Origin: Candidatus Eiseniibacteriota bacterium
GTDB taxonomy: Bacteria; JAFGKV01
Length of the DNA stretch: 6,627 bases
Assembly: GCA_025453925.1 (NCBI GenBank)
Contig: JALOPK010000187.1
Location: forward strand, 1-6,627
Direction of reading: 5' to 3'
Within the stretch, counting starts at the first letter, position 1, and the number at the start of each line of letters is the position of its first letter. A program made the translations under genes and the position numbers. This document shows positions 2,265 to 6,627 of this stretch, piece after piece. Under the pieces are notes generated by a model, which did no database searches, was not told the DNA's origin, and saw nothing but the letters and a program-made list of their open reading frames with translations.

Positions 2265-4088
2265 CTACCTTGGCCGACTCCGGGTGAGCGCCAGGTCCAG
2301 CCACCTCCGGCTCTCCGAAGAGGAAATGGTCCCGCTGGCCACCAGGGGTATCTCATCGCCCACGCGGAACAGCCTCCGCATGCTGCGGGCGATGGTCATG
2401 CGCGTGGCGTCCGTCGTGCTTGCCGCGATTGAGCTCACCAGCACGACGACGGCGCACCCCCTGCTGCTGGGGATCGACAGTATGAGCCGTCTCGCCTCGA
2501 GCACATCGGGCTGCCCGCTGTCCAGCACGACGAGGAATGCGGGCTCAGCGCCGCGCTCCAGCGCCAGCGTGAGTTCATCACCCTGTGTCCAGCGATTCGT
2601 GCCCAGGACGATCCATTGCGGGCGCTTGGAGGCCGCGTGGATAAAACAGGCCCACCGTTCACCCTCAGGAATCGCGAACCCGCGGTCAGGCCGCCCGACC
2701 AGTGCCTCGACGGTGTCAGAGACCAGCAGTCCAGTCATGCCCAGAATCACGACGGGCCGTCCGTGGGGCTGTGGAATGAGTCGCGCAATCCGTTCGGGCT
2801 GGTCCAAGACTCGGACGAGAGGAACCTCGCCAGCGAATTCCCGATCGAACGCGTCCAGACGAGCCTGGGAGCCGAGGCCGCCCGTCTCAATGCCTGGCGG
2901 TTCCGCTTCGGCACCCGCTGCCTCCGCCCGATGGTCCCACGACGTGAGGTTCTCCAGGAGCCTGTCGATCAGTTCTGTGTCGAGTTTCATCCGGGCGAAG
3001 GTCTTCATCGCCACCAGCCGCTTGGCGATCCCCTCCAGGGTCCGCACGTCGGAATCGACGCGGTCGGCCACGTACCGCAGCACGGAATCGTCCAGCGGCC
3101 AGTTGTTCTGTGTCGCCTTGTGCTTGAGTATCCTCACCCGTAGATCGGCGTCCGGCTTGTCCACTTCCACCACGAGGCCCATGCCGAAGCGGACGCTGAT
3201 CTCGGCGGCGATCGCTTGCAGTTCCTCCGGCTTTCGATCAGAGCAAATGACGATCTGCTTCCCGTTGTCGTGCATCGCTCCCAGAATGTCGGCGGCGACG
3301 GTTTGGAGACTCGGCGAAACCGCCAGGAATTGGATGTCATCCACGATGAGGACATCGGCACCCACGTACTCTCGACGGAACTGCTCGACCTGCCTCGCGC
3401 GGTATGCGTCGACTATCTGCTGGCTGAACACTTCGGAGCTGACGTAGAGGATACGCGCGCCAGGATCGGCCTCATAGACCTCATTGGCCAGAGCGCACAC
3501 GAGGTGCGTCTTACCCAGCCCGTTTCCGCCGTACAGGAAAAGGGGGTTGAACCGAGATCCCGGGCTCTCGGCTGCAGCGCGTGTCGCCTCGAACGCCGAC
3601 CGGTTGCCGACTCCGATAACAAAGTCGCGAAAACGCAGCCCGGCGAGTCGCTCCATGCCCTCGACGGCAAAGGGGCCGCCGACTCCAGGGACACGCCTTC
3701 GCTCTCGGTACGCGGCTGCCCTGCGCAGGACGGCGCGGGCTTTCGCGACCAGCTCGGTGGGACTGAAGGGCTTCGTCACATAGTCATCCGCGCCGAGTTC
3801 CAGGCCGCGAAGCTTGTCTGCCTCGTGAGTGCGCGCACTCAGGATGATGATGGGGGTGTTGCGGGCGAGGGGATCGGACCGAATCCGCTGAACGATTTCA
3901 AAACCGTCGGTGCGGGGAAGGAGTAGGTCGGTGATGACGAGACTGGGCCGTTCATCGCGGACGATCTCGAGACCCGGATCCGCGTCCGGCGCGAGAAGGA
4001 CCTCGAAACCAGCCTGTTCGAACGCAAACTGGATCGCCCTCAGAATGTGCGGATCATCATCAATGACGAGGATTCGACCCTCGGTCAT
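2265..4088 (-). CDS. Response regulator receiver fused to a DnaA domain III ATPase, with an unknown C-terminal domain
   Basis: The product has 607 residues. Residues 4-122 are a complete receiver domain: acidic pocket D10/D11, phosphoacceptor D54, S84 and K106 (in VTKPF). Residues 150-381 align throughout with DnaA domain III: FVIGVGN (156-162), NPLFLYGG leading into Walker A GGNGLGKTH (187-195), an undeleted initiator-specific segment (217-245), Walker B VLIVDDIQFL (246-255), sensor 1 CSDRKPEE (282-289), a box VII-type arginine finger R300 (in VRFGMGL) and sensor 2 R349 (in VRTLEG). DnaA domain I, and domain IV with its DHTT DNA-binding signature, are absent. After a Gly/Glu-rich linker (386-408), residues 411-607 form an alternating strand/helix domain that I do not recognise. 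ATG 4088 has AGGAG 5 nt upstream; the frame stays open to 4370, but the receiver begins right after this ATG. Likely role, by inference: a phosphorylation-gated ATPase that joins or regulates DnaA-type filaments. No partner kinase is nearby. Confidence 0.92.
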   Translation of the reverse strand: MTEGRILVIDDDPHILRAIQFAFEQAGFEVLLAPDADPGLEIVRDERPSLVITDLLLPRTDGFEIVQRIRSDPLARNTPIIILSARTHEADKLRGLELGADDYVTKPFSPTELVAKARAVLRRAAAYRERRRVPGVGGPFAVEGMERLAGLRFRDFVIGVGNRSAFEATRAAAESPGSRFNPLFLYGGNGLGKTHLVCALANEVYEADPGARILYVSSEVFSQQIVDAYRARQVEQFRREYVGADVLIVDDIQFLAVSPSLQTVAADILGAMHDNGKQIVICSDRKPEELQAIAAEISVRFGMGLVVEVDKPDADLRVRILKHKATQNNWPLDDSVLRYVADRVDSDVRTLEGIAKRLVAMKTFARMKLDTELIDRLLENLTSWDHRAEAAGAEAEPPGIETGGLGSQARLDAFDREFAGEVPLVRVLDQPERIARLIPQPHGRPVVILGMTGLLVSDTVEALVGRPDRGFAIPEGERWACFIHAASKRPQWIVLGTNRWTQGDELTLALERGAEPAFLVVLDSGQPDVLEARRLILSIPSSRGCAVVVLVSSIAASTTDATRMTIARSMRRLFRVGDEIPLVASGTISSSESRRWLDLALTRSRPR

Positions 4089-4360: not shown

Positions 4361-4451
4361 ATTCAGGCACAGTGGTTCAGGCTTCGGTGTTGCCTCCGAA
4401 CGCACACACCGTCAGGCTTCTCGGAGGGGAGAGTACGCCATCCCTCAGCTT

Positions 4452-4893: not shown

Positions 4894-6573
4894 CTATCTC
4901 ATCACGACCAGGGATCTCACCGCCGAGCACCGTTCTGCTGCGGTGCTCCACCAGTATACCCCCGAAGGCAACGTGTGAGGAAGGCTGAGTTCAAGCTCGG
5001 TGCCGTCCTCCCCTGAGCTGGGCCGGACAGTGGCGCGTGCCACGTGCCGGCCGCCGGCGTCATACAGGACTGACCGGATTCCACCCGCGACGATTCCGGG
5101 GATGAAGAGGTAGGCATGTTCCCCGGCCGGATTGGGCCAGGGGCCGACAAGCCGCAAAACCTCAGGGGCGGCGAACCCGGCCGCCGGCGACGGTCGCATG
5201 AGGTACACGCAACCGGCCTCATCCTCTCCCCCCCCGCCCACCGCGCCATAGGCGCCTATCGCCAGGTCGTCACGCCCATCGCCATCGACATCGCCAAGGG
5301 GTGCGGTCGACCATCCGAAACTGCTCCCCGAGGCCTCAGGTGCGCTGAGGTCCACTATACGCTCGCCGGTTGAGCCAAATGCGCTCACCTCCCCGGTCCA
5401 CCCTTCCGCCCCGTCGACGAGGTAGCTCACCACGGCATCGGACAGGCCGTCGTCATCAACATCGCCGGCCCACCCAACCGCGCGGCCGAAGAACGCGACT
5501 CCTACCGAGGGCGGAGGGTGAAATGCGGCAAGCAGCAGGCCGTTCTCGACGTCAAGCACATAGGCGGATCCGCCGCCTTCTCCGGGGGCGCCCACCAGAA
5601 GGTCCGGCGAACCATCGTTGTCCAGATCACCTCCTCCGGCCACCGCGGAGCCGAACCTGCCGCCCGGAACGGCTCCCGGTGAGATGAGCGTACGCTGGAG
5701 GACACCATCGCTCCCGAACAGAAAGACCGCTCCCGAAGCGGAGTCGTCGGCCGTCGGCACTCCGGCGGCAATGACCCCGCCCGCGAGACCATTGAGCACC
5801 GCCATGCTGCTCCCGAAACGGCCGTCCGGCACCTGAACGGGAGCATCAAGCGCGCGAATGATCTCGCCGTCGGCCCCGCTGAAGAGGTAGGCACGCCCTA
5901 CATTGCAGCGGGATGCTCCAGGCATCTCGCCAGGCGCCCCCACAGCAAGGTCGCACACTCCATCGCCCGTGATATCGCCCAGCGCGAGCACACTCCACCC
6001 GAAGCATCCCGCCGGCTCAGGCTCGGGCGAAGACAGGATCCTGATCGTGACCCCGGAGGCACCACTCAGAACGTGCACGCGTCCGGCGTCTGCCGCGTCA
6101 CCGTCTCCATCCTCGCCGGGAGCACCCACCACCAGATCTCCTTGGCCGTCTCCGTCCAGGTCGCCGGGCAGGGCCACGGCGAATCCGAAACGACCATGTA
6201 CCTGAGGAACGACCGGTGCATACGCAGCCAGGAGCGAGGCATCACCCGCGTCGAACGCATAGACCATCCCTGCCGAGGGCGCCTCTCCGCTGTCCTCTTG
6301 GGGTGCCCCGATGATCACGGCGGGCAACTGGACTGTCGGATCTGACGTCGCCACGCACCACCCAAACCGACCGGCCGGTTGTGCATTGGGTGACCGGAAG
6401 GTACGAATGAGCGAATCCGCCCATGCTGCATTCAGCGGGAGCAGAGCGAGGGTCGCGTGGAATCCAATGATCACCGACGACCCGTGTAACAGTGATCTCA
6501 CGCGGCCGGGCGCACATGTGCGGCTTTTCCCTGCGCCAGCGGCGGACGTGCCCGCGGCCCCTATCGGATGCAT
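4894..6573 (-). CDS. Secreted seven-bladed FG-GAP (integrin-alpha-like) propeller protein with C-terminal sorting-type tail
   Basis: From the ATG at 6573 the protein has 559 residues. A hydrophobic segment (about 34-49) ending in AWA (50-52) looks like a signal peptide cleavage site. Residues 69-460 hold seven FG-GAP units of about 58 residues, each starting FG and most carrying a GD.DGDG..DL.VGAP strand. Calcium-loop motifs are intact or near-intact at 138-146, 200-208, 316-324, 371-379 and 428-436. Blades 1 (near 70-91) and 4 (near 253-273) lack the Asp loop. Residues about 470-559 form a tail with PNPAG (480-484), LYDAGGR (503-509) and SGVYWW (537-542), as in type IX sorting or FlgD-Ig-like C-termini. 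The product is probably exported and surface-bound, with an adhesive or scaffolding role. The start is uncertain: ATG 6573 has GGCGGG 5 nt upstream; ATG 6618 is also in frame, near the window edge; GTG 6501 would give a textbook 28-residue signal peptide but has no SD. Confidence 0.9.
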   Translation of the reverse strand: MHPIGAAGTSAAGAGKSRTCAPGRVRSLLHGSSVIIGFHATLALLPLNAAWADSLIRTFRSPNAQPAGRFGWCVATSDPTVQLPAVIIGAPQEDSGEAPSAGMVYAFDAGDASLLAAYAPVVPQVHGRFGFAVALPGDLDGDGQGDLVVGAPGEDGDGDAADAGRVHVLSGASGVTIRILSSPEPEPAGCFGWSVLALGDITGDGVCDLAVGAPGEMPGASRCNVGRAYLFSGADGEIIRALDAPVQVPDGRFGSSMAVLNGLAGGVIAAGVPTADDSASGAVFLFGSDGVLQRTLISPGAVPGGRFGSAVAGGGDLDNDGSPDLLVGAPGEGGGSAYVLDVENGLLLAAFHPPPSVGVAFFGRAVGWAGDVDDDGLSDAVVSYLVDGAEGWTGEVSAFGSTGERIVDLSAPEASGSSFGWSTAPLGDVDGDGRDDLAIGAYGAVGGGGEDEAGCVYLMRPSPAAGFAAPEVLRLVGPWPNPAGEHAYLFIPGIVAGGIRSVLYDAGGRHVARATVRPSSGEDGTELELSLPHTLPSGVYWWSTAAERCSAVRSLVVMR

Positions 6574-6627
6574 ACGACCCGCCGGGTGGCACTCCGGGTG
6601 CCCGCCTGGAGACGGCATACGTACGCC

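Follow-up and report, generated by a model that had tools for sequence, protein, structure and literature searches.

We identified a protein that combines a response-regulator receiver, a DnaA-type AAA+ ATPase and a predicted Ras-like pseudoGTPase in a 6,627-nucleotide stretch of DNA (referred to here as the window) from a Candidatus Eiseniibacteriota bacterium. We see an even chance that this protein is a two-component regulator in which a DnaA-derived ATP switch and a pseudoGTPase docking domain act on protein assemblies, plausibly pili or the polarity machinery, rather than on oriC. The closest relatives of its AAA+ domain appear, from sequence comparison, to be other chimeras in which a DnaA-type ATPase is fused with MshEN, a domain of the c-di-GMP-receptor type, and some of these are encoded in a pilus locus.

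Gene structure and genomic context

The gene (2265..4088, minus strand) encodes 607 amino acids, from an ATG at 4088 to a stop codon at 2267-2265. In a mechanical ORF call the frame remained open 5' of this ATG as far as a GTG at 4370; the ATG was preferred because an AGGAG-like sequence lies just upstream and the ortholog in G001, a second genome of the phylum, has the same start. A sequence-only reading had proposed a response regulator-DnaA chimera here, and Pfam searches bore out both the ORF and the domain order. The neighbors within the window, assigned by Pfam, are an upstream gene for an FG-GAP repeat protein (4894..6618, minus strand), a TPR protein with a C-terminal zincin-like metallopeptidase domain (PF06262; 1050-2012, minus strand) and a WecG protein. 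The FG-GAP gene is the only window neighbor conserved beside the G001 ortholog, where its counterpart is 49% identical; no counterpart of the TPR-zincin protein adjoins that ortholog.

A profile search of the source genome (3.9 Mb in 502 contigs, the window lying in contig 199) revealed nine proteins matching PF00308. One is a canonical dnaA product carrying PF08299, whose gene adjoins dnaN, recF and gyrB (neighbors named by sequence reading). The earlier reading had left it to be seen whether the genome has such a separate dnaA; its presence rules out that the window protein is the only DnaA of this organism. Eight chimeras make up the rest: the window protein and three more receiver-DnaA proteins that end in the C-terminal domain, two receiver-DnaA proteins that lack this C-terminus (one of them also without the phospho-Asp), and two MshEN-DnaA proteins. 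One paralog pair shares a contig with the canonical dnaA, at a distance of ~14 kb.

Conservation and distribution of the family

The phylum is represented in our collection by three genomes only (the source genome G000, G001 and G002), each of which encodes four fusions of receiver, DnaA-type ATPase and C-terminal domain (n = 12). The window protein shares 77% identity with its G001 ortholog, and the three further paralogous groups were also found in independent genomes; therefore the fusion cannot be put down to faulty assembly, a concern that the earlier reading had raised. None of the 12 proteins has lost its receiver or ATPase motifs, and four ortholog pairs showed purifying selection in each of the three domains (dN 0.05-0.29 versus dS >1). 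In the same dN/dS comparison, the least constrained segment was the variable linker between the AAA+ lid and the pseudoGTPase (residues about 386-411; 2856..2933, minus strand), which was also modeled with low confidence.

No relatives of the chimera were detected with profile A4 in 1,486 genomes from five other phyla (297, 247, 246, 301 and 395 genomes), at E <= 1e-72 to 1e-75 with 3-5 candidates scored per genome; the three positive genomes had been scanned with profile A1 rather than A4. A contig scan with A1, whose patterns were generic receiver and P-loop peptides, returned 80 loci, all of them ordinary receivers and DnaA proteins. Relatives of the C-terminal domain were absent from the plasmid and viral collections, and in the three genomes this domain occurs only within receiver-DnaA fusions. 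A defence system was rejected as an identity for the chimera, the PADLOC matches being weak AAA+ ones only. Searches of published papers (preprints and architecture databases lay outside their scope) gave no description of receiver-DnaA-pseudoGTPase proteins, in agreement with the sequence-only reading, which knew of no characterized protein of this architecture.

Receiver domain and kinase inputs

The receiver occupies residues about 2-123 (3720..4085, minus strand) and matched Response_reg at residues 6-117 (3.9e-28, Pfam). The acidic pair, phospho-Asp, Ser/Thr and Lys of a response regulator are all present, as D10/D11, D54, S84 and K106, exactly the complete receiver that had been read from the sequence initially. 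Since Pfam searches found no histidine kinase gene within the 6.6-kb window, the window copy looks like an orphan response regulator. In the source genome, a histidine kinase is encoded next to three of the four paralog groups. The C384 paralog has a soluble kinase whose gene overlaps by ATGA, an arrangement kept in both G001 and G002; the C49 paralog adjoins a cyclic-nucleotide-binding (cNMP) kinase, also kept in G001; and the C168 paralog adjoins a hybrid kinase with Hpt, G001 having a large gene at the same place. A second conserved type of receiver-DnaA protein has lost the phospho-Asp and thus carries a pseudo-receiver (L008:1054-2526, L032:7932-9452 and L033:5304-6785).

DnaA-type AAA+ domain

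The central part of the protein (residues about 145-385; 2934..3656, minus strand) is an AAA+ ATPase with a lid of the DnaA domain III type, as judged from Pfam, a check of individual residues and an alignment with E. coli DnaA. Bac_DnaA (PF00308) matched residues 152-308 (1.6e-49). The E. coli sequence in the alignment was checked for length and residue numbering. Walker A lies at 187-194 (G190-T194), Walker B at D250/D251, sensor 1 at D284, the arginine finger at R300 and sensor 2 at R349; the last two correspond to R285 and R334 of E. coli DnaA, and the initiator-specific motif is present without deletion. All these features had been listed in the sequence-only reading, and the residue check and alignment confirmed them.

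Across the 12 family proteins, the Walker A Gly-Lys-Thr, Walker B, the sensor 1 Asp and the sensor 2 Arg are invariant. The arginine finger is an Arg in three of them (the window protein, its G001 ortholog and one G002 paralog) and is replaced by Ala, Gly, Ser or Glu in the other nine. Within the initiator-specific motif, every member carries Ser where E. coli DnaA has K243 and R245 (Ser258 and Ser260 in the window protein). The R281 equivalent is Glu or Gly, and the R227 equivalent is non-basic; the window protein thus has S, S, V and E at the K243, R245, R227 and R281 sites. It retains the hydrophobic V211 and L290 equivalents. In E. coli DnaA, R285, R227, L290, R281 and K243 act in contacts between domains III, and V211 and R245 act in the handling of single-stranded DNA (PMC5742627); in B. 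subtilis DnaA, the loop of the equivalent Lys222 touches the DNA backbone (PMC10721633). Because the ATPase motifs are invariant and the equivalents of K243, R245, R281 and R227 are replaced, the domain has likely kept ATP binding, and canonical DNA handling and canonical self-assembly have probably been lost or altered. DnaA-like filament formation by the finger-bearing members is possible, since the window protein and two relatives keep the finger. The earlier reading went further and took the finger and sensor residues to imply nucleotide-dependent self-assembly or co-assembly with DnaA; self-assembly of this kind may occur, but conservation does not imply it.

C-terminal domain

The C-terminal 196 residues (412-607; 2268..2855, minus strand) matched no Pfam family, and PF08299, the DnaA helix-turn-helix, is absent from the window protein. 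A profile search of solved structures pointed to the GTPase Der (E 0.017). In an AlphaFold2 model of the domain built with the 12 family sequences (pLDDT 90, pTM 0.89), strands and helices succeed one another as in a Ras-like GTPase, and the top Foldseek matches were GTPases or GTPase-fold proteins (EngB/YsxC, Nog1, Rab, Ras and Arf; E from 5e-5). VIA-align ranked YsxC/EngB best (Z 12.7, 3.5 Å over 171 residues), with Ras and Arf near 10. The full-length model had a pTM of 0.43, so that domain arrangement from it is unusable. None of the 12 sequences contains the G1 GxxxxGK[S/T], G3 DxxG or G4 NKxD motif; every one has lost the Gly-Lys of the P-loop, the Asp of G3 and the Asn-Lys-x-Asp of G4. 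Because a Ras-like GTPase fold is predicted and the nucleotide-binding motifs are missing, we predict that the domain is a pseudoGTPase. The loss of the DNA-binding domain, as claimed in the sequence-only reading, is thereby upheld, and a cryptic helix-turn-helix in the C-terminus is ruled out by Pfam and the predicted fold. The same reading had called the domain unrelated, which holds with respect to DnaA domain IV, but the predicted fold is a familiar one.

An MglA-like small GTPase (in G001) and roadblock proteins adjoin [NiFe]-hydrogenase-like genes (L149:3505-6018, G001:C39; L148:8905-10917, G000:C44). This GTPase was named by sequence reading and had no Pfam match at 1e-6. Membership of the C-terminal domain in MglA was rejected, as it gave no profile match to this MglA-like protein of the phylum.

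Ancestry of the AAA+ domain and the type IV pilus locus

In a tree of AAA+ domains, all receiver-DnaA proteins grouped with the MshEN-DnaA proteins T3, C7 and C283 (UFBoot 100), and this set fell inside a wider group of chimeras (UFBoot 78), separate from canonical DnaA. Forcing the MshEN-DnaA proteins apart from the receiver-DnaA proteins was rejected by the AU test (p = 0.0036). Placing all receiver-DnaA proteins with the DnaA of their own genomes was likewise rejected (p = 0.0017), as was placing only the 12 pseudoGTPase-bearing proteins there (p = 6e-7); the genome's own DnaA was thus discarded as the closest AAA+ relative. These comparisons suggest that the AAA+ domain descends from the MshEN-DnaA proteins or has its closest ancestry in common with them. 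Deep nodes had UFBoot values of 66-91; being below 95, these leave the exact branching order uncertain, and the case for descent from pilus proteins depends on AU tests in which outgroups were few.

G002 and G001 each have a type IV pilus locus that includes four neighboring MshEN-type genes. In G002 it includes a prepilin peptidase, PilB with MshEN, two PilT-like ATPases, PilC and a sigma54 regulator; the G001 genes were identified by sequence reading. Pilus genes are absent near the window copy, and the pilus locus contains no member of the four receiver-DnaA-pseudoGTPase groups.

Three of the four MshEN-type ORFs in this locus contain a DnaA-type AAA+ domain (L019:4309-17429 and L020:2452-12143, G002:C14; L017/L018, G001:C299). 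One protein of the locus, with 1990 amino acids, has the order MshEN-DnaA-coiled-coil-DnaA; neither of its DnaA domains has lost the arginine finger or the basic residues of the initiator-specific motif, and its MshEN c-di-GMP-binding motif appears complete. In the source genome (L016:3-2078, G000:C183), the same pilus gene set begins and is cut off by the contig end; here MshEN with a degenerate DnaA AAA+ domain lies beside a prepilin peptidase and a pilin-like gene.

Proposed mechanism and alternative explanations

In the mechanism that we favor, the protein would be an orphan response regulator from a family specific to this phylum. A histidine kinase would phosphorylate D54 of the receiver, and this phosphorylation would alter the state of the DnaA-derived AAA+ domain. 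Given its motifs, this domain should still bind ATP and can probably hydrolyze it, and it may form homo-assemblies or join other DnaA-type chimeras; finger-bearing proteins such as the window protein could supply an arginine finger in trans to the nine finger-less relatives. The predicted pseudoGTPase would be constitutively available for docking onto a target, and this target is more likely to be some protein machinery than oriC DNA. The type IV pilus together with its c-di-GMP/polarity control may be the best candidate, favored because MshEN-DnaA proteins, of which some are encoded in a pilus locus, appear to share ancestry with the AAA+ domain, and also because the MglA-like GTPase of G001 lies beside roadblock proteins. 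A phylum-wide extension of this scheme is possible, if doubtful: the DnaA ATPase would be a general signal-transduction output, receiver and MshEN inputs would drive hetero-assemblies of finger-donating and finger-less proteins that switch type IV pili or polarity, and the pseudoGTPase would imitate a polarity GTPase.

The sequence-only reading had suggested that phosphorylation couples signaling directly to replication initiation or to a DnaA-like remodeling job. The replication part lost ground, the sister group containing MshEN-DnaA proteins of a pilus locus. A phospho-controlled regulator of initiation, using domain III to co-assemble with canonical DnaA and supplying or blocking the arginine-finger contact in an Hda-like manner, would fit the intact Walker A/B and sensor motifs, the finger of the window copy, the canonical dnaA in the same genomes and the paralog pair on the dnaA contig. 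We consider it quite unlikely, since all 12 proteins have other residues in place of AID R227, box VII R281, K243 and R245, nine lack the finger, the AAA+ tree shows no affinity to own-genome DnaA, the window protein showed no clamp-binding motif and its score against the Hda model was far under the cut-off.

It is unlikely that the protein is a phospho-regulated AAA+ remodeler or scaffold for another target (envelope, secretion or general signaling) with no link to pili or replication. The paralogs do vary in their neighbors and kinase inputs, and the window copy lies among FG-GAP, TPR-zincin and WecG proteins, but the sister group takes in pilus-locus proteins. That the fusion is functionless, whether decaying or artefactual, has a negligible probability: the assembly is fragmented, but orthologs occur in two other genomes, gene order within paralog loci is conserved and every domain is under purifying selection.

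Comparison with known systems

To our knowledge, all described roles of DnaA domain III lie in replication initiation and the control of that step (DnaA, Hda and the related loader DnaC). If the favored mechanism is correct, an initiator ATPase uncoupled from DNA would serve as a free-standing molecular switch, wired to a phosphorelay here and to receptor domains of the c-di-GMP type in the sister proteins. It would represent a type of response-regulator output absent from the papers searched, and a bacterial pseudoGTPase within two-component signaling.

The window protein shares with DnaA the AAA+ domain III and lid, the initiator-specific motif, Walker A/B and sensors 1 and 2, and the DnaA model TIGR00362 gave 258 bits over residues 151-383, under its equivalog cut-off of 343.9; it differs in lacking domain I, the helix-turn-helix of domain IV and the basic residues of the initiator-specific motif. 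Hda/HdaA also has a DnaA-type AAA+ domain without a DNA-binding domain. The window protein is nevertheless distinct from it, as the sequence-only reading had held: it has a receiver and a predicted pseudoGTPase, its N-terminus is the receiver, a regular expression found no clamp-like motif in it, and the Hda model TIGR03420 gave 85 bits against a cut-off of 194.8. NtrC-type response regulators likewise place an AAA+ ATPase under receiver control, but theirs belongs to the sigma54-activator clade, whereas that of the window protein belongs to the DnaA clade, comes without a helix-turn-helix and is followed by an extra pseudoGTPase domain.

The likeness to MshEN-containing PilB/MshE is indirect: in this phylum MshEN is fused to DnaA-type AAA+ domains, some in a pilus locus, whereas the window protein has a receiver in place of MshEN and no secretion-type ATPase. 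The main text of the published account of MshEN names REC, HD-GYP, CheA, CheX, cyclases and kinases as its partners and does not mention DnaA (PMC5013675). Finally, the predicted fold of the C-terminal domain is that of Ras-like GTPases (EngB/YsxC, Arf, Ras and bacterial MglA), from which it differs by the loss of the nucleotide-binding motifs, a state that resembles the pseudoGTPase domains of p190RhoGAP (PMC5593906).
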